64,000 nucleotides of DNA, from NCBI GenBank assembly GCA_963575745.1, contig CAUYUJ010019895.1:28501-92500 (forward strand), in the 5' to 3' direction. A program made the translations under genes and the position numbers. Positions 2,611 to 57,290 of this stretch are shown one piece after another. Source of the DNA: Prorocentrum cordatum (Eukaryota > Sar > Dinophyceae > Prorocentrales > Prorocentraceae). Position 1 is the stretch's first letter. Every line of letters starts with the position of its first letter. The notes below the pieces were generated by a model that was given only the letters and a program-made list of their open reading frames with translations, had not been told where the DNA came from and did no database searches.

Positions 2611-2940
2611 GTAAATGGTAGTGGTGCGGCCCCGCATTGGGGCAGCCACAGGACGTGCCCGAGACCAGGTAACTCCACCTACACGTCGGACCCAAACTCC
2701 TCGTCCGCTGAGCCCGGGGGCAAGGCTTCCCGCCGGCACCCCATCAAGCATAATACAGCCCCTGACCCTTTTAACACGATGAGTTCGCTGCCTCACTTAG
2801 GTCCTCGGTTTTTAGGGCTGGCCCTATACGTGTGGGTGGTTTCGTCTGAGGCATCTGCAACAATAGGCCTATCCCCAACGTTTTTGGCCCTCCTGACTTA
2901 GGTCCCCTGCCATACAGAACCAGAGGCACTTGATTGCTTA
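2611..2940. other. No gene recognised
   Basis: Lower GC than its flanks and apparently unique within the window. Nothing coding was recognised. Confidence 0.4.
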
Positions 2941-5717: not shown

Positions 5718-8373
5718 GGTAGCCGCACTCGTAGCAGAGGAACCACGGGGCAGCAGTGTTGCCTCCTCCAGCTTCCTCTATGCCTTCTGCCGTTTCTTCC
5801 AGGGGTTGAACACCGAAACCCTCAAGACGCTTGCCGAATTCAATATTCTTCTGCTTTTCAAGCTGCACGTGCAGCTCTCTCTCAGCAGCTTCACGCACTC
5901 CAGCAGAAAAAAGGGTTTGCGGCAGCTCCGAGCCGCGCGAATCCAGTCCATGGCCCCCCCCATGTCCAGGAATTCTCTTTTTGTCCAGGCGAGAGTTTAA
6001 CCAGTCGAAATCGGTTTTCAGCTCAGCCGTCCATCCCTTCTCATCCTCCCAAAGAGTGTCCAAGGCAACCAGCAGCCCACTCGGCGCACAGGACAGGAGG
6101 CGCGCCAAATAACGCAGCCTGGCCACCCTAAGGATGGCTCTGTGACCAAGCCGTCCAACTTTGGCCAGAACGCTGGCGTGGGATTGGTGGTCTTCATCAT
6201 TTCCTCTCAACGGCATCCCCAAAGCAGCTCTGTACGCGGCAGCCTGAGCCGCAGCAAGCCTAGCATGAAGCCGAGCCCCCATGGGGTCCCAAATCGCAGA
6301 ATTAAACCAAAGTTTGGACACCGCGAAGGCATCCGCGTACTTGACCCGAGTGGACACAGACAACACTTTTCTTTGTCCCAAGGCCACTTGGATGGGTCTT
6401 AGTTCCTTGCGAAGCACTCCCGTCCTGAGCTGGACCTCAGCCCCCATCCCCCCATCTTCCATGATCATCGTCCCCAGCCCCTTCATCTGCTTGACAATGG
6501 CAACCTTGATGGCATGCTTAGGGGACTGCACAAAGTCTCCTCCTCCCTCCATGGCGACCTTCCGTTTAGCAAGCTGGGAGCCTGGGCCCACAAGGGCCAA
6601 CGTAAGAAACGTTTTACTCGCGTTCAGCTGAAGTCCGAACCTCGAAACTGCTTCGAAAACTAAGTCAACTAAGAGGGCAGCTTTCATGTGCACATCTTCC
6701 GCCTTCTTGATCGCCCCCACTAGTGTGAGGTCGTCAACAAACGCAACCGAGTTATGGCCCTCCTGCCAGTGGGACTCATCAGAGAATCGTTTCTCAACTT
6801 CAGGCGGCTTCCAATCAAGCTCCAACTGCTGCGTTCCTTCTTCTATCAGAAGGATGATTGGAGTAAATGCGACGTTAATGTCGTCGGTGGCAAACACCGC
6901 GCCTGGGCGCGTGCCCAGAGTCGGGCGCACATATGATGTTGCATGTCTGACCTTCCAAAAAGCCCCGGCCTTCGTATCGCGCACCAATTCAAGACGGTGC
7001 TGATCTTCAACCATATTTTCAAGAATAGGTTGGCCCTCAAGGGCCATGGTCGCGGAGAAAAGGGCCTCAGGGATTTGAACAGTATCCAGGGCAGCTTTCA
7101 GATCCTCCTCCTCCCCTGGGAGCCTCAAAATAAACTGCTTCACCACCGAGTAAAAAGCGGCGGTAAGATCTAAAAACATGCCAATGGTGGACACCTTCAT
7201 CAACTTCTGCACACGAAAACGAGTGCGCACAAAGTGGCTCGCCATATCTGTGCTCTTGCCCTGCAAGCCCCCACGCTGAGTAGCGTGCATGCATTTCAGC
7301 AACACCCCCCGCACACGCCCCCTCAAGAATTTATGATGAACCTTCGCCAGCGCATTGGCAAGCAGAATGCTACGCTGGGCAACAGCCTTCTCCATCTCTC
7401 CTTTCCCTTTTAAAAAGGAAACGACCTCCCCCCTTTTCATCTCCAAGGGTTCCCGACCAGAGACCCCGCACTTCAAAACAACAGGAAAATACACCCTGAC
7501 CATGCCACCAGGGTCGATTTTAAAGAGGTCATTCGGCACCTTATCGGGTCCTGGGGCTTTGCCTGTTGGCAGCTGGCTAAAGGCTCTCTTCAACTTGTCG
7601 CGAGACATCAAATTATCAAGCTTCCTCTCAGCACGAGCCTCCAGCAACGTGCCTCGATCGTTGTACTTAGCAATAATATCAGACTCCGACGCTTCAATCG
7701 CCCTTTCGATGTGCCCGAAGTGCCGCTGAAGGTCATTCGCATCATCTTGTGGTGTGATGAGTGGTCTGCCTTCGGGGTCGCTTCTCATGGGAAACACTAG
7801 TGGCTGACGGTGCCTCTTACCCCCATGGAGCAACAGACGTCTAGCTATCTTCCATTCTCGCCGAGACAAATTTCCCTCAATGCTTGTGTTGATCAGATGC
7901 GCATTGTCCTCTAAGTGTGCCGAATAATCTCGATCAAGCGCATCTAGCAGCGGCTGCTGAGACGCAGCTAAAAACCACGCCAAGGTCAAAGTCCACTCTT
8001 CAGCTGAGACTTGCTTCCAAGAAAAAAAGCCAGCCTGCAATGCCAGGCGCGTCCAGATCGCTTCAAGCTCTCCCCACATGTCCCCCTCAAAGCTTTTCGC
8101 GCTAACCCCCTCCGTGTAAACATCACCTTTTCTGATGCTCTGGGCCACGTAAAACAACCTGCCCACATGCTTCTCAAAGCCCCCTTTGTGCTTCACAGCA
8201 TGCCTCGTTTTCTGGATGAGCCTCCTTATCCTGATCAACCAGAACGTGGGCCCCTGAATGTACTCTTTGCGTGGACGGACAGCCGGCTTCGCAAAGGCCA
8301 ACTTCGCTGCATCGAGTACTTGTCGATTGGCTTCCTGCAGCTGAGCATTCATGTCATATTGCCAACATGGCAA
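5599..8373 (-). pseudogene. LINE A reverse transcriptase
   Basis: 924-residue open frame encoding a LINE reverse transcriptase that copies the element RNA at a nicked target. Visible motifs: GKAPGPDKVP (271-280), the first catalytic Asp in MFLDLTAAFYSV (about 399-410), LGTRPGAVFATDD (486-498), and FVDDLTLVG (545-553), the YxDD-type active site. The C-terminal end carries a C2H2 finger, CYECGYLAKTSKGLAIHKG plus KFH. The frame is long and free of stops. It lies in the same frame as the upstream endonuclease, separated by one TAA at 8395-8397. 8373 is a TTG inside the open frame, not a true start. The following frame change at about 5650 removes the second finger. Confidence 0.85.
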
Positions 8374-8394
8374 CTCTATGGCAGCAACCTTTTC

Positions 8395-9636
8395 TTAAAA
8401 AATCTTGCGCGCTGCCTCCTGCTGCATCTTGTTGCAGTCAAGGTTGGCCCCGTGGCCTGCGGCCCGAGACGTCTGTACCTGCCATCGCAACCTGCCTAAC
8501 ACGGGGAAGTGGTCTTCACTTTTTCTGATGAGGTCGATGTGGTGCTGTACCCTAACCTCCCCTATGGATTGAAAAAGTTGCTTATTGACCACCAGGAAAT
8601 CAATCCTATGCTTACTCTTCGTTTTATTGTCCAGGAACGTGTAGTCGTTCTCATCCCCGAGGAACGTGTTAGCAGCTTTCAACCTAAAGTCCCCCAACCA
8701 CTCCAGCATTTTGAAACTCCCCGCCGAGTACGTGCCTTTCGTCCCTTTACACCCAGCCTCCTCGGTCCCTGGGCCTCCTGAAAGATGGCAATTGCCATCC
8801 ACAAAACAAAGGCTGGGCGTCCATTTCTCACACACCTCACGCATTTTAGCCCAGAAAGCGGCTTTGGTGGCTGGAGTGTTCGCTGAGTGGGGCGCGTGCG
8901 CCACCAATACGTACATGCTCACACCAGGTGCTTCAATCCTTGCCATGAGGAGTCGCGGCGCGGCAAAGACCACTCGCACATGCTGCATGCAGAAACAGAC
9001 AGGCTTGCCTCTAGCTCTTCCGTAGGGAATGCTCACGTTCAGCCAGAGCTCCACGCCTAGTTCATAATTCTCGTGGCCCGCTGAAATGCAACACCAGTCG
9101 CCAGCTCGCTTAGTACTTTTCTCGTTTCTGCCCTCTTGAATCCCCACAATGTGCACTCCAGACAGGGTCAGCTGAGACCGAAGCGCGGCTGCTCTTCGCG
9201 CTCTATTGCGCCCCTTCACTCCACGGCGAAAGACGTTCCGAATTGACTGAGTGTTGAACGTGGCTACCGTGAGATCCACAGCAACCGCAACATTTCTCGT
9301 CGGCGGAGCAGAGTCAGCTCCTGGTTCTTGGACCTGGGCGACGCACGTGGGCATCTCGCCTTTCATCTCACATTCATTGTGCAGAAAGTTGACCTGTGGG
9401 TAGGCATGGCCGTCCTGATCACCAGGCAGCCATTCCCACAGGCGCACGTTGTTGAAGTTAACAGCCTGGACCCAGCTTCTCGGGGTTTCTGGGGGAGGGG
9501 CCAAGAGCTTTCTCGCCGTAGCTTTAGCCACGTTGTCGGCCAACATATTGGCTGGATGGCCGCAGTGGGCCTTCACATGGCTGATGCTCAAGCAATTTGG
9601 CCTCTCGGGCCGTGAGCTCCCAGACAACCCCCACAA
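8395..9636 (-). pseudogene. LINE A endonuclease (EEP/APE type) with end of RNase H
   Basis: 413-residue frame. Residues 19-40, ISHVKAHCGHPANMLADNVA, are the C-terminal RNase H helix with its His and Asp. The endonuclease/exonuclease/phosphatase fold follows: TFNTQSIRN (about 126-134), GIQEGR with catalytic Glu168, VAHAPH (246-250), FVDGN (Asp280 and Asn282), HRIDFLVV (343-350) and SEDHFPVLG with Asp375-His376. All catalytic positions seem present. This enzyme nicks the target to prime reverse transcription. The frame ends at TAA 8395-8397 and continues without shift into the RT. Confidence 0.85.
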
Positions 9637-16573: not shown

Positions 16574-17000
16574 TCAAGCTGGCGACGCTGCTGCCACCTG
16601 CGCGGCGACCAGATCCCCAGGGCCAGTGCCGTGCACCATGGTGTCGTCAACCCAGTTCCCGAGCGAGACCACGGGCCTGCCTACCTTGGCCGTGCGCAGC
16701 GGCCCCAGCAGCGCCAGCGAGGTGGCCCCGCTGCACCCTGCTATGATGGCCGCCGTGGCCTCGAACTGCTCCCCCACGCACCCGGCGTGTACGAGCGCGC
16801 GGAGGCCCGCACAAATGCAGCACAGGCCCCGCACCACTTTCAGAGGCAAGGTGTGAGCCACCACAGCGCCGCACCGACGCTTGAAGCGGACAGCGCTCGC
16901 AGGACATCTCAGGTGAGGTCCAGCGCCGCCGTGGCCGAACGAAAGCCGACGCCGCGACCGAAGCCCGCCAGCAAGCTGCGGGCACACCCGGCCCAGCCGC
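16574..17000 (-). pseudogene. Reverse transcriptase-like fragment
   Basis: The reverse-strand frame contains AAIIAGCSGATSLALLGP followed about 20 residues later by SLGNWVDDTMVHGTG. A GC(S)xAT block ahead of an x-V-D-D box resembles the palm of reverse transcriptases; VDD lies at 16643-16651. Upstream residues (GLRALVHAGCVGEQFEATAA) fit the same fold loosely. The frame ends at 16574; 16300-16573 may hold the decayed thumb region in another frame before DR-1 copy 2. It is unlike LINEs A-C and may represent another class. Confidence 0.4.
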
Positions 17001-17560
17001 AGCTCTCGAGCGAAGAGCCGCCCCGGCAGAGGTCCTCTCGCTGTGCGCCCGTTCCCCATGCGGCGCAGCACGGGCGCCTCGGGCCCGGGTCAGAGGCGCG
17101 GGCACCGGGCCGGGAAGCCCATCGGCCGAGTGCCGCCGCCTCGGACACTCTGGGGAGGAGGATGGCCTGCGGCAAGGGAGGCCTCGGGAGTGCCCGGGCA
17201 ATCCTCGAGGAGGCGCGGCGGTGCATCCTCCCCCCCCGCAGCTGCCATCCTGCCGTCCTCCTGGAGCAGCTCGGGGGCCATCCTGGGGCAGCCTGGGGCC
17301 TCCGGCGCAGTCTTCGGGCCATCTTGAGGCAGCTTTGGGGCTGTACTGCGGCCTCCGGGCCCCGTCCTGGAGGCAGCGTGGAGCCATCCCGCAGCCCTGT
17401 CGGGCCACCCAGGACGATTGCAGCGGTGCCGCCTCGGGATCGTCTTGGGCCATACCATCTCTACCCCATGCAGTAGCGATGCCACGCGAGCTGCTTTGAT
17501 CGGGGAAGTGTGGGAGCACGCAGTTGGTCAAGAAGGGGGGGGGGCACCCGTGCAACCGAA
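17001..17560. repeat. GC-rich DNA grading into GGGGCC(A/T)TCCTGG minisatellite
   Basis: 17230-17440 shows degenerate GGGGCAGCCTGGGGCC-type repeats. Nothing coding was recognised. Confidence 0.4.
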
Positions 17561-46689: not shown

Positions 46690-46752
46690 TCCCCCTCCTC
46701 CTCCTCCTCCTTCTCCTCCTCCTCCTCCTCCTCCTTCTCCTCTTCATCATCA
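46690..46752. repeat. (TCC)n then (ATC)3, 5' flank of LINE B
   Basis: CTCCTC repeats end in TTCATCATCA just before the spliced leader. Confidence 0.85.
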
Positions 46753-46774
46753 TCCGCAGCCATTTTGGCTTAAG
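46753..46774 (+). other. Spliced-leader relic at the 5' end of LINE B
   Basis: 22 bases match the dinoflagellate spliced leader with two transitions (C for T at 46757, T for C at 46771). The following TAGCCAAG (46775-46782) may be a shrunken second copy. It marks the first base of an mRNA that was trans-spliced before reverse transcription. Confidence 0.8.
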
Positions 46775-46998
46775 TAGCCAAGGTGGTCTTTTCCACTGCC
46801 TAAGCGGGGTAGGCTCCCATTCCAGCCCATTGCTCTTTCGTTCACGCAGCCACACTCAGGGGCGAGCTGCCGCCCGCCAGGGTTCCATATCTTCCATGTT
46901 TTGGCGTGCTGTCTTCTCCGTGGTGTTGAGATCGCTGCCGTTCGGTTACAGGTGAATCGTCCCGTCCCTCTGTTCTGGCCACGGCGGTGTTTTTCGCT

Positions 46999-48190
46999 AT
47001 GGCTTCAAGCGGCACGTCGAGGTCCTCCTCTAGTCCCACGCGGGATCGGCGTAGGCAGCGTCGCCGCGAGGGTGATGCCAGTGGTTCCCGCAGCGTTCGT
47101 GGTCAACGTCGACAGCGCAGAGCACATCGTGACGACAGACAGCTCACACCAGTGGATCGCCGCGCGGGCACGTCAGGAGGACCCGCCTCACAACGTCGAC
47201 TACAACAGCCAGGACACCATCAAAGAGGTGATGCTGAATTATTCCGAGCGTGGGAGGACTGCCCCACCTTTCCTGATGAAGAGAGACGAACTGGTGAGGA
47301 TCCGCTTCGCCACAGTGGCTCATGGCAGAAGCTCGAGCGGTCGGCTCCACCCTCTCGTGAGCCTGACAATCGAAGGCTACATGTTCCAGGGTCTGCCGAA
47401 TTGGAGGAGAGCCTCTCTGCCGTCTTCTCAGACCACATGCAGAAAGTTACGCAACGTCTTCAGCAAGAAACCACCGCCATCATGCAGTCAGCGACGACCG
47501 CGCTCCAGAGTGAGTTCCAGCTGGTCATTTCGTAGGTGCATCAGCAACGGGGCCGCATCGACGCTTTTGACACCAGTCTCCGTGAGTTCGGCAGTCGCAC
47601 GCAGATCGCCGAGCAGGAGCAGCAGCAGATGCGTTCGGACATCGAGCGCGTTCAGTCTTCTCTCGCCATGGCAGAGGCCACGCTCCCGCCGCTCGACGCG
47701 GCTGCACTCGCAATATGGGATCGCCCACCCTACCCACACCTTCACAGCATCGGAGCGCCCTCGGCTATCGAGCCTGCGGAGGTTCGGCGCTCATTGGAGC
47801 CATGGGTCACTGCAGCAGGTTCCCCCCCCTCAGCGACGACGAGTTCATTGGTGATGTCCCATCGCGCAGGTTCTTTCTTCGAGTGCTGTGAGGTCCTGCA
47901 GCTTCAACGAGGAGCATTTCGCTCGCGCGCAAATTGCGCAACGGAGGTCAGCGGATAACATTCTCTGCTCCGAACACGTCTGGGGCCATCGCGCCTCTCT
48001 ACATCGACGCAGACAAATCACCCAAACAGCTGAGGCGAGAACTACAGTCCAAGCGTCTGGTTCGCTTGCTTGCCGAACGACATTCTCAAAATCACTTCCG
48101 TCGCGTTGGCGACGAAGGCATCGTCTCCATCGATGCGGTCCCGCTCGTCGCGCTCGAAATCGGCTCTACTGCAGCTGAGAGCACGCGGCT
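46999..48190 (+). pseudogene. LINE B ORF1
   Basis: ATG 46999 opens MASSGTSRSSSSPTRDRRRQ, basic and disordered. A coiled coil follows (LQQETTAIMQSATTALQSEF), interrupted by an in-frame TAG at 47533-47535, after which the same frame continues with HQQRGRIDAFDTSLREF and AEQEQQQMRSDIERVQSSL. It ends at 47958; a +/- shift then continues ORF1-like sequence (APLYIDADKSPKQLRRELQS), comparable to the last domain of LINE C ORF1. The protein would bind element RNA. Confidence 0.65.
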
Positions 48191-48299
48191 TCGGTGGGAT
48201 GGGCAAGTTCTACAACGGTTCAACCAATCGCTGCCGAGTTCCAGTGGCTCTGCCGCGCGACCGACACCTCGCTGTGGTCCATCCAGCCCCCGCTGGTCT

Positions 48300-51280
48300 C
48301 CGCGGCGCTCCTCTTCCAGCTCAGCGGGCGCGCGCGTGGTCAGCAGGAATGCGCGTGGCCTGCGCTGCTGGCACCCGCGATGGAGGAGGTGTAAGCTTGC
48401 CAAGCTCGAGAGGCTCTTGAGGAAGGGTGCCATCGTGCTCATTCAAGAGTACCACGGAGTCTCTATGCAGCTGGGGGTCGCGTCCGCCTGCTTCCCCTTC
48501 CCGTGCCAGGTCTTCCACTCCCATGCCGAGGCCACGCGCGAGGGCGGCGTCGTGTCTTTGGCCCCGTGGCCGCAGGCACCACCCGATGAGGCTCGGCCGG
48601 TGGTTCGGCGTCATCCGCTGGTACCTGGGCGCGCTGCTGCTTCGGAAATCGCTCATCCCATCGCCGCCCCCCTTTTCTGGATGCTCAATGTACACAACTA
48701 TGGCATCTCAGAGTTAGCTCGTCGAGCGCTGGACCAGCACTGGCGTGGCGCTGCGATCTGGGGCGCGGAGGGCCCCTTTGCTGCGCTCATTCCTGGCCAT
48801 GGGTTACCTCGGCATTCGCGATGGCAACGCTTACAACGATGACGAGCCCCTGTCGGTGTCGAGTGCGCTCCCCACGCCGCGCACCGACCAGTCAATCGAG
48901 ACGTTCTGGCGCCCGCTCATCGTCCTCGTTCTAGAGACTCGTTCTCCGATCCCCACTCACTTCTGCTGGCAGCACTACAAGGCGTCTGCGATCGTTCGCG
49001 CTTTCATCGGCATCCCTGCGCACCTCCTCCTGGACACTGGTGTTTTCGTCAATGTGGACGCTGGCCCCATGGAGATGCCGCGGCCCAGGTTGAGCGCCCA
49101 TTCCATGCTCTGCCCCCCCATGCGCCCCAAGGCTCCTAGTCGCGCTGCGGAACGCCGCATCCCTGATGTGGTCTTCTGCGACGCTAGGTACAAAGAAATA
49201 ATGGACGGGCTTCTCGCGGTCGCTAACCTGGAGCGCTTCTCCCCTGTCCAGCGGTGGCCCTACGCGATTGACTTCCTGACCGAGGTGGCTCGTCAGACAC
49301 GTGATGAACTGCAACGGGTCCCTTTTCGCCCCCATGGTCGTCGCGCGGTTGATGGCCGATCGTTCGCCATGAGGAGCATCTCTCGCGCGGTCTGGCGGCA
49401 AGATGCTGAGTTGGCGGCGCTGCTGATCCCCTCCGCGTCGGAAGGATCGCGGTTCCTACGACTGGAAAGCGGAGTGGGTCGATTGCTTCATCACGATGGG
49501 GTTCGGCGACAGTTTCGTTCCCTTTTTGTTGCCGAATTAGATGCAGCTCAACATCGCGCGGTTCAGGCGGCGCAACAAGTACTGCGAGCGGGGGGCGCTC
49601 TTGGGGCTGCCGCCCATTGCAAGCAGTTGCTCCGCGCGCCCCGCGGGCCCCTGGAACATCTGAGGGCAGCTCACGGTGCTCCGTACTCTCTGAAGTATTC
49701 CATTGTTGCGTTTTCTTCCACGGGCTCCGATCCGTTGGATGCTTATGAATGCTTTCGGCATCCTTCGCAGGTTGGGCCTCTATCGCTGCGTAATAGGGAT
49801 TTCAAGATTCACGCGGCGCCTGCCAACCACAAGCATGACAACCTCGTGCAGGAGTGCGCGCATGAGGGCCAGCAGGGCTTTGTGCCACGCCGCAATTTCT
49901 TGCGTAACCCAGCGAGCCTCGACACCGCTGCGAGGCGTGCGAGCTTTCGCGTGTCGGCAGCTCATGACTGTCCAGTCTCCGCTCGATGTTGCCACTGCAT
50001 CTCCATCGCTGGGCCATCATTGGCTCGGGGCGGTGCTTGCGCGGCTTGGCCCGCCCGAGGGGCATCGCATTTCTGCTTTCTATTATGCGCCGCGTAGTCT
50101 CGCTGCTGTCAATGGTGAACAGCAGCTCATGTTTTACATGCAGTCTGGGGTGAGGCAGCGCTGCCCGCTCCCTGGCTCTGTCTGGGCCACTGTCATGGAC
50201 CCGCTGCACCGACTGATGGGGGAAGTCTCGCTGTCGTCGTAGGGCGACTGTCGTGGAGTGGTAGGAGGGTGTACCGACGACGCTGGCTTAGTGCAGCCAC
50301 GCCGTCCTGATTTGCCGCGCGATTTGCTTGTGTTTTCTGAGGCCGAGCGGCTGGCTCACCCGCGCCTCCAGACCCAGAAGGTTGTGCTCGTGCCTGTGTT
50401 GCTGTACAGTAGTTCTGCTCTCTCGGTACTCAGCTATCTCGCTCAGCTCCCCCCCCCGTCCCACGATGGGTGCTGCTCTGCGCAAAGTTCTACGGTTGCC
50501 GCACTGACCGTCTCGTAAGGCAGATCTGTTTGCCTTCAAAGAACACGCTCTCTTCGCGTCTGCTTCTGTACAGCTGTTCAGCGCCTCCAGTCTCGCGCGC
50601 TGTGCGTTTCATGCTTTGGCAGATTGGCACGGTGACTTCCATGCATGGTCGGAGCAGGTGATCCATGACCTGCCGCTTGTGGCTTGGCTGCGTGGCAAAT
50701 GGAGTGCTCCTTGCTGTCGCATGCGGCAGGGCTTTGTGCAGCGCTTCCATGCCATGGCGGACCGCTCGCCTGCTGCAGGTGTCTCTGATGTCCACTGGCA
50801 TCCCGCCGCGGCTGCGGCGTGCGAAGAGTTCAGTAAGCTGCAGCTGATTGTGGGGTCGGTTGGGGAGCGGTGGGGGGGAGTGCATCGTGACTCTGCGCAA
50901 CGATTGCTCAGCGTGGCAATGGTTCATTCTCAAGACGCTCGCGGGAGGCTGGACCACCTCGTGCCGCATGCACGTTTGTGTGGCTCCTCCTCCTGCCCGC
51001 TCGGCTGTCCCGATGAGGCCGATGCGTTGTCCCTCTACCTATCCTGTCCGGTCTTTCGTCGCCTCCTGTTTTTCCGGCCTCTCCCATTCATCTGCTGGGC
51101 CTCGCGGCCCTTAATGAGTACAATTCCGCCATCTGTGCGATGACCCGCGCATCAGCCCTCACGCTGTGCGTTCTGGCGTTCCGAGGGTATCACAATGCCA
51201 AGACAACCTGCGCCGACCGCTCAGCGCTGAGCTGCTTAACGGTGTCCTAGCTGCCGCACGTCACGCTACTTTCAAGTAGG
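48300..51280 (+). pseudogene. LINE B ORF2 (endonuclease and reverse transcriptase), broken
   Basis: Endonuclease: VVSRNARGL (about 48333), AIVLIQEYHG (48430), a DGNAYNDDEP block after a frame change at about 48800. RT: QQGFVPRRNFLRN (49870), LDVATASPSLGHHW carrying the first catalytic Asp, in another frame (49978), SGVRQRCPLPGS (50143, one change from QGCPLSG), and GGCTDDAGLV (50267), the YxDD site. A CPLGCPDEADALSLYLSCP block near 50997 matches the Cys-His motif of LINE C but with His replaced by Leu. It ends RHATFK-stop at 51280. At least five frame breaks; not functional. Confidence 0.75.
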
Positions 51281-51312
51281 CAGCTGTGGACGAACAACGC
51301 CAGGACACGGTC

Positions 51313-51341
51313 GATCATCATCATCATCATCATCATCATCG

Positions 51342-51384
<43 letters not shown>

Positions 51385-51421
51385 TATCATTATCATTATC
51401 ATTATCATTATCATTATCATT

Positions 51422-51465
<44 letters not shown>
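51313..51465. repeat. (ATC)n/(ATT) tail of LINE B
   Basis: CATCATCATC with a CATTATCATTATCATT phase at 51380-51422. It begins 33 bp after the ORF2 stop. Confidence 0.9.
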
Positions 51466-51889
51466 TTTCCTTGTCCTTTTCCTCGTCCTCCTCCTCCTCC
51501 TCTTCTTTTTCCTCCCCATTCAGCTTCTCATCCTGCTCTTCTGTCTCCACCTCATGATCCTGCTGGTGTTTTGCCTCCTCCCGCGCTTCCCCCCTCTCCT
51601 GCAGCTCCGCATCATCATTTTCCTTTCACCTGCTCCTGCCCGTGCTCTTCGTCCCGTTTGCGGCTCATTATTTTTCTCGTCCGAGTCCACTCTTTTACCT
51701 CCTTCCCTTCCGTTCCCTCCCCCCAGTCCGCCTTCCCCCCTCCCGTCCCATCCCCATCTCTCCACTTCCGCCTCCCTTCTCGAGCTCGAGCTGGTGGCGA
51801 TACTGTCGGTTCGGACTGGCGCCTTCGTCCTCCCTCTTCCTCCTCGTCCCTCCTCCTCCTTCTCCTTTTCCTCATCCTCCTCCTCCTCC
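51466..51889. repeat. Pyrimidine-rich spacer between LINEs B and C
   Basis: TTCCTCGTCCTCCTC-type degenerate sequence; similar DNA follows the tail of LINE C (57121-57290). No gene. Confidence 0.6.
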
Positions 51890-51945
51890 TCATTATCATC
51901 CTCATCATCATCAGCAGCAGCAGCAGCATCATCATCATCATCATG

Positions 51946-51976
<31 letters not shown>

Positions 51977-52052
51977 GCATCAGCATTATCATCATCATCG
52001 TCATCATCATCATCATCATCATAATCATCATCATCATCATCATTATCATCAC

Positions 52053-52084
<32 letters not shown>
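51890..52084. repeat. (ATC)n, 5' flank of LINE C
   Basis: CAT/CATCAG repeats with CAGCAGCAGCAG at 51911. The array touches the first base of the spliced leader. Confidence 0.95.
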
Positions 52085-52087
<3 letters not shown>

Positions 52088-52106
52088 GTAGCCATTTTGG
52101 CTCAAG
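52085..52106 (+). other. Spliced leader at the 5' end of LINE C, intact
   Basis: Perfect 22-base match to the dinoflagellate leader (T at the variable first position, then CCGTAGCC, ATTTTGG, CTCAAG). Leaders are added to mRNA by trans-splicing, so this DNA derives from a mature mRNA. Confidence 0.95.
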
Positions 52107-52121
52107 CCATTTTGGCTCAAG
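52107..52121 (+). other. Truncated older spliced leader in LINE C
   Basis: CCATTTTGGCTCAAG, the last 15 bases of the leader, directly after the full copy. The cut falls exactly after the TAG inside the leader, which can act as acceptor when a leader-bearing transcript is trans-spliced again. Confidence 0.95.
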
Positions 52122-52264
52122 CACGAAACGTGCGGCCTGGCGCTTCGTGCTTGGTCGCTGCCGAGGGCCAGGCTCGAGGTTATTTTAGCCTCAGGGTGTG
52201 CGCGGTAGAGGTGCTTCTATTAGCCCTGTCAGATCCAACCTTCTGGGACGTTCTGGCTGCCGCG

Positions 52265-53260
52265 ATGGCCGCCACTCTCTCCATGGACCAGAAAATGGAT
52301 CAGCTGCTGGCATCAATGTCCACCGTCGTAGCCACCGTCAATGCCCACGACGCTAAGTTTGCCAGCCTCGCCAAAGACATGGAGAGCATGAAGACCGACA
52401 TGCGCAATGAGATGGACATCAAATTCGAGCACATGCAGAACCAGATCATCGCCCTGCAGCAGCGCCACGGCAACATCACGGGCGGCGAAGCCTCTGACGA
52501 GATGGTCGACACATGCCTGACGGTTTCACTACTTAGCGCTCAGACCGACCAGAAGATCAGCGTCATCAATGCCGCACTCGAGGAGCTGAAGACCTCTGTC
52601 GCTACGATTTCACGACCACCTTCGACGGCGTCTGGCATCGCCAGCACATGGGGGACCGTGGCCACGCCCCGTGGAGCTAGCGCCGCGCCTGCTGACAGGC
52701 GGAAGCTCTGGGTGCGAGGGTTCCCTGTCAAGCTGATGGCTTCTGCATTCGACAAGCACTTCGAGTTCCTGAAGACACTTCTCTCGCCCACCTACCGCGA
52801 CAAGTGCAGCGCGATCACCAAGAGCTGCAAGTACGCTTACGTCATCATCTTCGAAGACGCCGACGACGCCAAGAATGCCCTGTTGCAGCTGCGTGCCATG
52901 ACGCTAGAATGGGGAGATGGCAGTGGCTTTCGGCATCGGCTTCGGGTCGGCACCGACGAACCCATCGACATCCGCAAGAAAGGTTGGGTGCTGGGCCAGG
53001 TCTGGCAACACATCAAGCAGGTCATGACCGACGCTGGCACATGGCGTCCTGACTCGCAGCTCCGATGCAACAAGTACATGGGCCTCTGCTTCTTGGTCAA
53101 CGGCGACCTCGTTGACGAGCTCGTCGTGTTGCAGAATGTCCTCGAGACCGACAACCCGAACGTCGAGCCCAACCGCGGCAACTTGAAGCGCTACGGCTTC
53201 ACCGACGAGCAAGTAGACAAGCTGCCCGAGCTGGTCACTGCTGCGCTTCGCCGCGAATAG
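52265..53260 (+). CDS. LINE C ORF1 protein (coiled coil and RRM-like)
   Basis: The first in-frame ATG, 52265, gives MAATLSMDQKMDQLLASMST; the frame is open further upstream through the leader, but only by non-ATG codons. Residues about 10-130 form a coiled coil (FASLAKDMESMKTDMRNEMD, ISVINAALEELKTS). Then an RRM-like fold: RKLWVRGFPVKLMA (RNP2-like) and CKYAYVIIFEDADDAKNALL (RNP1-like). The C-terminal part holds KRYGFTDEQVDKLPELV. It is predicted to bind and chaperone element RNA. It ends at TAG 53258-53260, after which the same frame stays open into ORF2. Confidence 0.8.
   Translation: MAATLSMDQKMDQLLASMSTVVATVNAHDAKFASLAKDMESMKTDMRNEMDIKFEHMQNQIIALQQRHGNITGGEASDEMVDTCLTVSLLSAQTDQKISVINAALEELKTSVATISRPPSTASGIASTWGTVATPRGASAAPADRRKLWVRGFPVKLMASAFDKHFEFLKTLLSPTYRDKCSAITKSCKYAYVIIFEDADDAKNALLQLRAMTLEWGDGSGFRHRLRVGTDEPIDIRKKGWVLGQVWQHIKQVMTDAGTWRPDSQLRCNKYMGLCFLVNGDLVDELVVLQNVLETDNPNVEPNRGNLKRYGFTDEQVDKLPELVTAALRRE
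53258..53260 (+). other. Single in-frame TAG between ORF1 and ORF2 of LINE C
   Basis: The frame downstream reads GRSEPVSGSDSDDEFDPERL without a stop and enters ORF2. Either readthrough joins the proteins, or a once fused frame gained one nonsense change. Confidence 0.85.
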
Positions 53261-55354
53261 GGGCGGAGTGAGCCAGTATCTGGGAGCGATAGTGACGATG
53301 AATTCGATCCTGAACGTTTGCGAGCCCTGCTGCGAGAACGGGGGGAGGCCACCTCGACACCGCCTGACTCTCTTCCTCCTGAGAATGCTCCAGCTATTCA
53401 TGATCCCTACCTTCCTGATCCACACTCTCCTGGGGGAGGTGAAGCTGCTCTTGCTGAGCAGCGGCATCCATTTGTTATTTCTCGTGCTATGGGTCTTGCT
53501 TCTTGGAATACTCGTGCATTTTTTGGCAGTGTTTACGGCGATCCACAGAGACAGCATCGGAAACAGCAGATTTTCAGAAGTCTTGTACAACGCTTTCAAG
53601 TAGTATTTTTGCAGGAAACCCACGGGACCGAAGAAGATCTTTCCTCGCTGGATCGTGACGTGCCAGCACACACGCACCTTTGCTCTTTTTGCTCTTCTGC
53701 GGCTGCGGGAGGCGTTGCCATGTCTATTGATCCTTCCTTGCTCCAGCTCTTTCAGGACATCCACGTAGTTAACATTATCGATGGACGATGCATAGCAGTT
53801 ACACTGACAGGCGAGAAAGGCACGCTGCAATTGATTAACTTTCACCTCGACCCTACCCCCTCCGACGTTGAGAAGGATCGTGTGATCCGCGCGGTTGCTG
53901 CTCACGCTCTGCCTGCTGATCAGGCCACAGTCATCTTGGGAGGCGATTTTAACTTCTTGGAGGAGGGGGAGATGAGGACGTTCACTGACGGAAGGGAACC
54001 CACCCCTGAGAGGACCGCTATTCTACACATGTTTTCTCGGGCTTTCGGACACTTTGCTGAAGTTGCCCAACAGGAGCCCACTCATCGGACTGGGAGGAGG
54101 GAGGACGGTGCTCTCAGCCTTGGTCGCCTGGATAGGTTCTACATCTCTTCTGCCACCACCGACATTCTTGATGCGACACCAAGAAGCGGTGTCATAGGTC
54201 TTGCTCACGATGTCGCCCAGCCGAGCGACCATATTCCTGTTTGGCTTCAGTTTTCGCCTGGCGGCAGAACTACCCCGACGATCCCCTCCTGGATTGCCAA
54301 ACATCCTGATTTTGGTTCTGAGGTTGATGCTGCCATAAGTTCGGTTGAAATGCCCAGGGACCCGTTCGAGTACCTCCTGTCCGTCAAAGACGCGATGCAT
54401 GTTGCCAAGGATGCTCTGATGACTCGCATGTTCTTCCGAGGCCCCAACAATGATGCGCAGAAGTTGTCGGTTTACCTTAAGTTTCTACGGGCTGTTCGGG
54501 ATGGCAAGTCTTGGGACGTTCGGAGGTGTATCCAGGCTATTCCTCATCTTAGTCTACATGTTCATGCTGATGAATGTTGTTTTAGAGATTCTGTGTCTTT
54601 TTATCGGGAAATGGCCGAGCTCCAGCATTCTCTGCTTCAGCGAGAAATTCGCGAACACGTCGCAGGTGGCGGAGCCCCCGACGACGATCGAGGCCTCCGG
54701 TTGCACCAGCTTCTGCGACAGTGGTCTCCCAAAAGGCGCCGAATCGTTCTGGTTTCGGTCCCCGACCCCACCGGGAACCCCTCGCCTGATCTCGAAGTCA
54801 GTGCTCAGAACCTTGCGTCCCACTGGGGGCGGGTCCATGCCGCGAAGCCTCAGGACAGGGGATACCACTTCCAGAAGACACTGTTGAGCAGTGAGATTCA
54901 GCAGGTTGCCCCAGGTATCGAGTGGGCGCTCGACCTGCATAGCTTCATAGGTAAGCTCGTCAGCCGCAAGGACAGCGCGACTGGCCCTGACGGAATTCCC
55001 TACAGTGCCTGGCGGTTCGCTGGAGACGCTGCTCACAATGCCTTGTATCAAGTTTATCTCGCTATATTGGACAATCCTACATATGGGCCCCCGCATAAAG
55101 GCTTCAACGAGTCTCTCACGGTATACCTCCCTAAGGCCATCTGCCCTCACGAAGCTGGAACCTCTGAGATCTCTCGGGAAGCGTCTGTGGTGCGCCCTAT
55201 TGCTCTCAGCAACACTGATAACAAAATAGTATCATTGGCCATATGCGAACCATTTAGCCAACAATGCCAGTACAGCGTCTTAGGCTCCCAGACGGGTTTC
55301 GTGCGCAAGAGGTCTATGCTCGACAACTTGCTCTGCCTTGAGGCAGATTCTTGA
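53261..55354 (+). CDS. LINE C ORF2, first part (endonuclease and RT fingers)
   Basis: Open from the TAG; the first ATG is 53489 (MGLASWNTRAFFG), which would open right at the endonuclease. EEP motifs: SWNTR, VFLQETHG (Glu), NFHLDP, GGDFNFL (Asp, Asn), GRLDRFYIS, PSDHIPVW (Asp-His). The RT begins with DSATGPDGIPYSAWR, ASVVRPIALSNTDNK and SQTGFVRKRSMLDN. The frame runs out at TGA 55352-55354 because of a +1 shift near 55338. No RNase H domain was seen in this element. Confidence 0.85.
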   Translation, partial: GRSEPVSGSDSDDEFDPERLRALLRERGEATSTPPDSLPPENAPAIHDPYLPDPHSPGGGEAALAEQRHPFVISRAMGLASWNTRAFFGSVYGDPQRQHRKQQIFRSLVQRFQVVFLQETHGTEEDLSSLDRDVPAHTHLCSFCSSAAAGGVAMSIDPSLLQLFQDIHVVNIIDGRCIAVTLTGEKGTLQLINFHLDPTPSDVEKDRVIRAVAAHALPADQATVILGGDFNFLEEGEMRTFTDGREPTPERTAILHMFSRAFGHFAEVAQQEPTHRTGRREDGALSLGRLDRFYISSATTDILDATPRSGVIGLAHDVAQPSDHIPVWLQFSPGGRTTPTIPSWIAKHPDFGSEVDAAISSVEMPRDPFEYLLSVKDAMHVAKDALMTRMFFRGPNNDAQKLSVYLKFLRAVRDGKSWDVRRCIQAIPHLSLHVHADECCFRDSVSFYREMAELQHSLLQREIREHVAGGGAPDDDRGLRLHQLLRQWSPKRRRIVLVSVPDPTGNPSPDLEVSAQNLASHWGRVHAAKPQDRGYHFQKTLLSSEIQQVAPGIEWALDLHSFIGKLVSRKDSATGPDGIPYSAWRFAGDAAHNALYQVYLAILDNPTYGPPHKGFNESLTVYLPKAICPHEAGTSEISREASVVRPIALSNTDNKIVSLAICEPFSQQCQYSVLGSQTGFVRKRSMLDNLLCLEADS

Positions 55355-57026
55355 ATACGCCTGCTATCGCGGCATGCCGCACGCTGGGCTACTCCTCTTG
55401 GATTTCCGCGCCGCGTTCCCGTCGCTGCGCCACGACTGGATCATAGATGTGCTAATCATGATGAACATACCCATGTATATCGTGAATGCCATTCGGTTCC
55501 TATACACCGGTATTTACACACACATATGCCTAGCAGGAAAGAAGTTTCCAGGCTACTCGATCACCCAAGGCATTAAACAAGGATGTCCGCTGTCGGGTGC
55601 TTTATTTGCGTTATGCATCGACCCGCTGCTGCGCCGATTATCTAACTTGCTAGCTCCTGTTTGTGCTACCCCTCGTGCCTTTGCAGATGACATCCAGATC
55701 TCGGCATCCAACCTGTTGCTCGCTGTTCCGATTGTGCTGAAGAATGTTATTAGGTCCAGCCGTTGCACTGGCCTGCTCTTGAACCTTGCCAAGTGTATGA
55801 TCGTGCACGTGCAAGAGATGCCAGACGACCAGCATTTCGCCCTGTTCGAGTCCGTTCGCACCAACGTTCGCTCGCTTATGCACGGCACTAGTGGCAAAGT
55901 CTTGGGTGTCTTTCTGGGCCCTGGAGGTTGCAAGAAATCCTGGTCCGCTCCGCTTCAGAAATATTTTAATCGCGTCCGTCATGTTCGGTCGCTTCGTCTT
56001 GGGCTTACTCAAAGTATCTATGCATATAACTCCTTGGCCTTCTCGGTTCTCACCTTCGTGATGCAGCTATGTTACATATCGCAGGACGCTCTTCGCATGG
56101 AAACCAAAGGTTTGCAGACTCTCACCGCATGCCCCTTCTACAGCATCCCTACTGATCTTCTCCGCAATCTCTCGTCTGCGTTGCATTGGCCCATTGCCCC
56201 GCGCAACCTAGTGCTGGAGAATCAGGCTGCCATGTATCGGGTCGCTGTTCGGTCTAAGGTTTTTGATAGCATTCGGAAGCGCTTTCATGAGCTTGAGGAA
56301 GAGGACTTGGATGTTCTGATGGTCAAGCGATACCCGGCATGGCGTGCCGAGTCCATTGTTTTCCACCTGATTCACAATTACGAGCGACTAACTGCCCTGC
56401 CGTGGAACCACTTCGATGAGGACACTCACGAGTTGCAGAGACAGATTTTGAAGAAATTGCTTTCTGAGGCCCCTTGTAGCTCCGCGAGTTTTCTCCTGGG
56501 CAATCGAATTCGGTTCGCTTTTCCTTTTGCTGATGCCTCTAGTATCGACCTTGCGGTGCTCAGGCTCCAAATTGCCTGCGCGCGCGTCGGCCCATTTGTG
56601 GCTGCGGCCATTCTCAAAACCATCTGCAACGCGTGGGCGACCTCTGCCAGGTATAGGCAAGGCCGTCTTACCTGCCGTTTCGGTTGCCTGGCCACAGGCG
56701 GCGACCACGTCCAGCATTACTTCGATTGCCCTCATGTCCTGAGCTTGCTCCATTCTGTTTTGCCCTTCCTGCCAGTCGAATATTTGAATCAGAGCCTCGA
56801 TGCGCGTATGCTGTGCACTATGCCATGCCAGTCTAGTCAGCAGCTGTTCTCTTTGTTTCTTGTCCACGACCTGCTTTTTTCTACCTTTAACTCCTTGAGG
56901 AGCTCGCACAGGTACGGGCCCGAATGCCTGCTGCCTCTCCTGCGCGCGCGTGCCCGCCACATTGCCAAGAAGGGGCGCGGCGTGCGGAGCCTGCTCATCA
57001 GGAGGCCCGCGGCAGAGGGCAGCTGA
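55338..57026 (+). CDS. LINE C ORF2, second part (RT palm, thumb, Cys-His)
   Basis: Continues the RT: LLLDFRAAFPSLRHDW (first catalytic Asp), TQGIKQGCPLSGALFA, PRAFADDIQIS with FADD at 55680-55691 (active site), GKVLGVFLGP. Near 56672 CRFGCLATGGDHVQHYFDCP forms a C-x3-C...H...H...C cluster, a likely nucleic-acid-binding finger shared with LINE B. Basic C-terminus ending AEGS-stop (57024-57026). All RT catalytic residues are present; only the upstream frameshift prevents one continuous product. Confidence 0.85.
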   Translation: MRQILEYACYRGMPHAGLLLLDFRAAFPSLRHDWIIDVLIMMNIPMYIVNAIRFLYTGIYTHICLAGKKFPGYSITQGIKQGCPLSGALFALCIDPLLRRLSNLLAPVCATPRAFADDIQISASNLLLAVPIVLKNVIRSSRCTGLLLNLAKCMIVHVQEMPDDQHFALFESVRTNVRSLMHGTSGKVLGVFLGPGGCKKSWSAPLQKYFNRVRHVRSLRLGLTQSIYAYNSLAFSVLTFVMQLCYISQDALRMETKGLQTLTACPFYSIPTDLLRNLSSALHWPIAPRNLVLENQAAMYRVAVRSKVFDSIRKRFHELEEEDLDVLMVKRYPAWRAESIVFHLIHNYERLTALPWNHFDEDTHELQRQILKKLLSEAPCSSASFLLGNRIRFAFPFADASSIDLAVLRLQIACARVGPFVAAAILKTICNAWATSARYRQGRLTCRFGCLATGGDHVQHYFDCPHVLSLLHSVLPFLPVEYLNQSLDARMLCTMPCQSSQQLFSLFLVHDLLFSTFNSLRSSHRYGPECLLPLLRARARHIAKKGRGVRSLLIRRPAAEGS

Positions 57027-57061
57027 ACTGCCCCCCTCTCTGGCGCGCTCAGGGGAGTGCG

Positions 57062-57098
<37 letters not shown>

Positions 57099-57125
57099 AC
57101 ATCAGCATCATCATCATCATTCTTC
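57062..57125. repeat. (ATC)n tail of LINE C
   Basis: ATCATCATC with ATCAACATCAGC interruption, starting 35 bp after the ORF2 stop. Confidence 0.9.
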
Positions 57126-57290
57126 TCCCCCTCCCCCCTCGTTCCTGTATCCTCCTTCCTCCCTCCTGCTCAATCCTCCCCCCTCCTCCTCATTCCTCCT
57201 TCCTCCCTCGTCCCTCTCCTCCCTCAATCCTCTCTCTCACTGTCCCCCGCCCTCCCTCCCACTCACTCCTCACCACTCATCCTTCTCCAG
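57126..57290. repeat. Pyrimidine-rich DNA after LINE C
   Basis: CTCCTTCCTCCCTCC-type degenerate sequence. Confidence 0.7.

Follow-up and report, generated by a model that had tools for sequence, protein, structure and literature searches.

How does a retrotransposon come to begin with the spliced leader (SL) of its host, followed at once by the end of an older leader? The question is raised by LINE C, an element on the plus strand of the window (the whole stretch of DNA analysed, 64 kb in length). LINE C opens with TCCGTAGCCATTTTGGCTCAAG (52085-52106, plus strand), a perfect 22-nt dinoflagellate SL with T as its first base, and directly behind this full SL stands CCATTTTGGCTCAAG (52107-52121, plus strand), exactly the last 15 SL bases, a stub remaining from an older leader after a cut behind the TAG. 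This order at the first base of the element had been described in an earlier note on the same DNA, and reading of 52085-52121 confirms it. Recycled (retroposed) dinoflagellate genes with DinoSL relicts were reportedly described by Slamovits and Keeling in 2008, and the arrangement by which such relicts are recognised (a full SL, then a relict cut after TAG) is present in LINE C as well as in its sister copies.

The exact SL 21-mer occurs a single time in the window. With up to three mismatches, three matches are obtained against 0.00 expected, a number equalled in 0 of 100 shuffles, and these are the LINE C SL, the stub with its preceding bases and a two-mismatch SL at 46754; the minus strand of the window has no SL within three mismatches. 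The 15-mer stub alone, again with up to three mismatches, gives four matches against 1.79 expected and is less telling than the SL. Occurrence of the SL by chance is ruled out by these window shuffles together with a genome-wide count set against a reversed-pattern control.

Anatomy of LINE C

LINE C lies within an (ATC)n microsatellite, its insertion target, which is seen at 52054-52084 on the 5' side (from the sequence, with a matching flank in 37/40 copies) and at 57062-57097 on the 3' side (from the sequence and sister 3' stretches); these and all features of the element are on the plus strand. Leader and stub, the latter present 0, 1 or 2 times in sister copies, are followed by a 5' UTR (52122-52264, up to a putative start codon) within which other copies have their junction at further AG acceptors (body offsets 44 and 50), and by ORF1 (52265-53260, scanned as 52097-53257), which gave no match in the Pfam scan. 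The first part of ORF2 (53318-55354) holds an endonuclease (PF03372) and the start of the reverse transcriptase (RT), and its second part (55338-57026), in another frame, holds the RT (RVT_1); both parts were matched by Pfam and by our own RT profile. A short 3' UTR (57027-57061) ends in ...GGGGAGTGCG, without poly(A). Thus, the element downstream of the leader is a LINE, as the earlier note had held, and the situation of a LINE lying inside an unrelated retrocopied gene, which that note had considered, does not apply. The passenger encodes endonuclease and RT instead of being a host gene as in DinoSL retrogenes. By sequence, the nearest solved structures of the LINE C RT are the RT cores of R2 and L1 ORF2p, a similarity that does not fix its clade.

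The window copy itself is probably not autonomous, as judged from its sequence, because its ORF2 is broken into two frames near 55338-55354. Across the break region, a 240-nt frame is open in 17 of 18 comparable sister stretches; 19 had been fetched and 18 were open (L134 was not), L131 (open) being set aside as an internally deleted copy and not the same stretch. A cmscan of 46700-57200 (E <= 1) gave six matches, all below gathering scores, of which five are snoRNA-like, on the minus strand and in or beside the microsatellite (51442-52037 and 57047-57100), while the sixth is a lncRNA piece at 53391-53540; no ribozyme, and hence no 5'-end ribozyme as in trypanosomatid elements, was among them.

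Apart from LINE C, the window harbours a second, decayed LINE (LINE B, 46753-51313, plus strand, ends placed by eye), which starts with TCCGCAGCCATTTTGGCTTAAG (the SL with two changes) directly behind a (TCC)n/(ATC) tract and has its other end in (ATC)n. The insertion of LINE C is about 770 bases downstream of it in the same repeat-rich stretch. A third RT fragment lies on the minus strand at about 16577-17089.

Sister copies of LINE C

A 4,128,499,153-base assembly (21,875 contigs) was searched with a 5'-anchored query (52107-52700), which gave 299 candidates; the best 40 were scored, comprising the window copy and 39 fetched 5' ends, after three of 43 matches had proved to be second pieces of copies already scored. 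An exact SL 21-mer stands at the start of all 40 scored copies (best 40 of 299). It is followed by no stub in 25/40, by one in 12/40 and by two in 3/40. In 37/40, at least 24 of the 30 bases ahead of the SL fit (ATC)n, the exceptions being L056 (21/30) and L061 and L062 (10/30 each); the latter two have a common flank of other sequence than (ATC)n, and perhaps represent a single insertion that was counted two times.

A 3'-anchored search (query 56400-57061) gave 78 candidates, and among the best 40 of these the SL is reached by 34. As compared by eye (contig and position), 33 were already known with their SL, and L155 is a further copy with SL, 93% identical. The other six scored copies are without SL and truncated at the window equivalents of 52841, 54488, 55426, 55560, 55872 and 56503; five directly abut (ATC)-rich DNA, and L151 a looser ATC-type stretch. 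Copies that start at varied points without a leader, which the earlier note would have held against its own proposal, do therefore exist (6/40), but they look like the plain 5' truncations of any LINE. Full-length together with 5'-truncated copies is the ordinary LINE pattern, with the SL ending the full-length ones.

The end ...GGGGAGTGCG, followed by (ATC) repeats and without poly(A), recurs in 18 of the 19 sister copies whose 3' stretches were fetched; the nineteenth stretch does not include the element end, owing to a deletion that makes its copy, L069, about 1 kb shorter, and the 3'-anchored search shows L069 to reach the same end base. Target duplications can be read where the array is sufficiently irregular, as in L042, L044 and L047, and are there 20 nt long and exact. 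The L036 duplication matches at 19/20 positions by eye, and the exact test, by which pure arrays cannot be judged, gave none in L036 and L046. Thus, besides the encoded enzymes, a fixed 3' end with 5'-truncated copies and target-site duplication, as expected of a LINE, are found in this family.

The leader is joined to the 5' UTR at more than one place. In L048 and L049, the junction lies at body offset 44, after ctgccgAG (ctgccgAG^GGCC), with one stub intervening in L049, where the SL is exact and the adjoining stub mutated; in L050 and L053, it lies at offset 50, after ggccAG (ggccAG^GCTC). In L065, the SL and two stubs lead directly into CCGACGGGG, which in L066 and L067 is preceded by ...CGCAG as part of a longer 5' UTR. 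In L051 and L052, the SL is joined at offset 45, after GG instead of AG, for which an indel in the G run is an unproven explanation. The 5' UTRs of L054-L067, unplaceable on that of LINE C by a 25-base test, are diverged or belong to different subfamilies. In the LINE C copies L057 and L058-L060, the SL is followed by a 5' UTR unalignable to that of LINE C; such a 5' UTR could arise when the AG used for splicing lies in the DNA next to a truncated copy. As far as DNA sequence can tell, the several AG junctions are traces of trans-splicing to different acceptor sites; with the use of such other acceptors, stubs and part of the 5' UTR are lost.

The proposal of the earlier note that the LINE travels as a trans-spliced RNA is thus supported by the leader at the start of 40/40 scored 5'-anchored and 34/40 scored 3'-anchored copies. 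Likewise, the one stub in 12 copies and the two in 3 fit its suggestion of a 15-base stub left behind when the TAG within the older SL is used as acceptor.

Spliced leaders across the genome

Genome-wide, the SL 21-mer (up to one mismatch) occurs 24,192 times (12102+12090), the SL with at least one stub 2030 times and that with at least two stubs 260 times, the reversed-pattern control being 0 in each case; the longer patterns are judged more strictly because one mismatch was allowed over the whole pattern. Stubs are commoner in LINE C (15/40, with two mismatches per stub allowed and one stub having one) than at SL sites at large (2030/24192). Similarly, a perfect stub was found in 6 of 61 sampled SL places versus the 15/40 in LINE C, the sample being the first listed places in contig order and not a random one.

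For the SL places that stand first in the list, twenty surrounding regions of 9 kb, holding 21 exact SLs, were surveyed for RT with the RT profile; the second SL of L015, with only about 2 kb downstream, was left out. RT lies downstream on the SL strand at 14 of 20 assessable places, and none was found on the opposite strand in these regions. Eleven of the 14 also have Pfam RVT_1, endonuclease or RNase H (E <= 0.001; several below Pfam's own cut-off), in a check that covers all but L021 and L024 and in which one ORF of L011 gave no match. That SL and RT belong to one element was checked by alignment for L013/L024 only; these represent a second family, 91% identical over 5.8 kb, with the plan (CCT)n-SL-LINE-(CCT)n and no stubs. 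No RT was found by the profile in the 9-kb regions of L010, L012, L019, L023, L027 and L028. L010 has a 1888-aa ORF of unassigned kind behind its SL, without a Pfam match. ORFs on the minus strand of the window at 7123-9591 are about 27% identical to this ORF (L010:2837-8500), and ORFs of the L010 type are perhaps another SL-headed element class.

As judged over the 24 bases ahead of the SL, CCT-like sequence precedes 25 of the 61 SL places (the 21 of the RT survey and 40 further ones taken in the order of the list), AGG-like sequence precedes 11 and ATC-like sequence 1, the remaining 24 having other sequence. In the random background (20,000 places drawn from the window and the fetched 9-kb loci), the shares are 1.5% CCT-like, 1.6% AGG-like and 0.5% ATC-like. 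L018, L099, L108 and L129 form one family with common first bases after the SL; AT- or CA-repeat flanks are visible by eye in L018 and L108, less clearly in L099 and not in L129. Contig C39 bears three near-identical SL copies, L124, L125 and L126 (at 19.9, 25.1 and 28.2 kb), whose upstream sequences are also almost the same; nothing resembling a LINE is seen in the 171 bases fetched, and they may represent a tandem SL gene. In outside collections, the SL was found in one viral and two GTDB contigs, and the RT profile had no match in these three. The IMG/VR contig L087 has two exact SLs 147 bases apart (2746-2766 and 2893-2913, minus strand). L088 (1-52), on a contig binned as a Dehalococcoidia MAG, starts with (TCA)n-SL like a dinoflagellate insertion, has no LINE match and is perhaps contamination or a chimera.

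Alternative explanations

Nineteen LINE C copies compared over 1169 aligned columns (L030, with its 3' end outside the fetched stretch, was left out of the tree) differ by 0.72% on average and by 1.45% at most. Were the SL a fixed sequence of the element, captured once and since copied like its other bases without trans-splicing in each round, the 25/40 stub-free copies, most of which have the same SL-body junction, and the likewise stub-free L013/L024 would be readily understood. Nevertheless, stub number varies among copies as similar as these, the SL 21-mer is exact in 40/40 while the adjoining stub of L049 is mutated, degenerate older stubs occur at other SL sites, and within LINE C the SL is joined at three or more positions of the same 5' UTR, which argues against a fixed SL; this explanation is extremely improbable. 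Trans-splicing could also be confined to a single master LINE whose mRNA gives daughters that are dead on arrival, in the manner of host retrocopies, with rounds that do not chain. The star-like tree agrees with such a history, 18/19 copies having 0-10 differences from the majority and L042 having 22. However, the 15/40 copies with stubs need an SL-bearing source that was transcribed, re-spliced and recopied (twice for three of them), and L065 shows loss of 5' UTR and then two further rounds, so that unchained rounds are unlikely.

The earlier note had also taken the number of stubs as a counter of rounds. A stub does record one round, and the genome-wide series of SL, SL with at least one and SL with at least two stubs (24192 : 2030 : 260) speaks in favour of this idea. 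Against it, stub-free copies are in the majority, and the stub states are scattered over the tree, with stub-bearing copies in about four places and the two-stub L045 beside the stub-free L036 (the tree being weak because many branches have near-zero length). Furthermore, the comparison of stubs with divergence proposed in that note gives no clear relation (differences from the majority, Spearman 0.31, p 0.20, n=19), and alternative acceptors erase stubs. A strict counter is therefore rejected as very improbable, and stub number remains a lower bound on rounds.

Proposed mechanism

In the explanation preferred here, to which a probability of about 0.9 is given as a whole, LINE C is a member of a young, microsatellite-targeted LINE family, the genomic RNA of which is most likely trans-spliced before reverse transcription, with SL-bearing copies becoming sources again. 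Since the element start is the host leader in most copies examined, spread as a leader-tagged message, with insertion into simple-repeat DNA, is suggested, and the stubs carried by some copies indicate, from the sequence record, that SL-bearing copies were reused as sources, in three cases on two occasions or more. Transcription of a copy in an (ATC)n array would take in upstream DNA, and the host spliceosome would add a new 22-nt SL at an AG near the 5' end. The element endonuclease would nick another (ATC)n array, at which the RT would start copying at the fixed 3' end of the RNA and either proceed as far as the first base of the leader or stop early. With the TAG inside the old SL as acceptor, a 15-nt stub would stay; with another AG, no stub would be added, or 5' UTR would be lost. 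For stub-free copies, the AAG at the leader end and SL-less sources are candidates, and an SL-less master locus could be their maker.

A repeat and the TAG of the copied leader could together form a splice acceptor ready for use, a notion that is appealing for (CCT)n, less convincing for (ATC)n and unsuited to (AGG)n, where an AG directly ahead of the leader could serve instead. In L119 and L122, at sites not now in AGG tracts, an older SL with an intact TCCGTAG start stands behind the new SL; since the old leader keeps its TCCG start, the acceptor lay ahead of it. L025 and L028 have a degenerate form of the new SL and then an older SL with a TCCG start.

At even odds in our judgement, SL addition may be routine 5'-end processing for many LINE families here, most of the approximately 24,000 SLs marking LINE 5' ends and each family having its own simple repeat (CCT, AGG, ATC, perhaps CA/TA); to carry the finding over from the SL sample to the majority of the 24,000 is guesswork. 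Insertion beside a repeat would rebuild a 3' splice site (repeat tract and copied leader's TAG), so that a new copy would need no promoter of its own and would live off read-through transcription, and acceptor choice would let families trim or swap their 5' UTRs.

Implications and comparison with known systems

LINEs themselves travelling as SL-bearing RNA are a likely RT source for many dinoflagellate retrogenes, and a genomic SL can mark where a LINE begins instead of tagging a retrogene. Stub counts are to be taken as lower bounds. Furthermore, the DNA holds a readable record of acceptor choice by the trans-splicing machinery, and the findings offer a means of tracing the life cycles of LINEs in genomes of very large size.

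Among the matches listed, no description of a LINE headed by an SL was found in the accessible parts of the open-access literature, nor is such an element described in those of PMC7789003 and PMC2868825. SL-marked retrogenes, and retrotransposons as a possible source of the enzyme, are dealt with in the portions available of several reports (PMC12014239, PMC3942190, PMC8045281, PMC10235124, PMC7245778, PMC11453091, PMC6050394). Symbiodinium LINEs with methyltransferases have been described (PMC5890265), and a search of the available text of that report for spliced or splice leader gave 0 hits.

Recycled dinoflagellate genes with DinoSL relicts are described in the available text of PMC3229502 and PMC6050394, the relict form being an SL cut after base 7 at an AG (PMC3229502). 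Like these retrogenes, LINE C has a full SL and then relicts truncated after base 7 at AG, and points to repeated RNA-DNA cycling. The passenger of DinoSL retrogenes is a host gene and their enzyme is presumed, whereas that of LINE C encodes endonuclease and RT; moreover, LINE C differs in forming many near-identical copies at one microsatellite type and in making acceptor choice visible within one family.

R1-type microsatellite elements are among the repeat-targeted non-LTR retrotransposons. As in such repeat- and microsatellite-targeted elements, on the accessible account of PMC4640811, LINE C occupies one kind of simple repeat and has a fixed 3' end, target duplication and 5' truncation; unlike them, it appears to owe its 5' end to a host SL added in trans. 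L1Tc of Trypanosoma cruzi is, like LINE C, a LINE in an SL trans-splicing host, and has a 5' Pol II promoter (Pr77) and unspliced transcripts without SL according to the part of PMC4748587 available, of which LINE C would be the opposite. The LTR retrotransposon Cer1 of C. elegans has a used SL acceptor, as LINE C probably has, and its short spliced mRNA occurs with and without SL1 (PMC3315495, accessible part); however, its 8-kb genomic RNA is, by the same account, not SL1-spliced, whereas the genomic RNA of LINE C is read here as SL-spliced.
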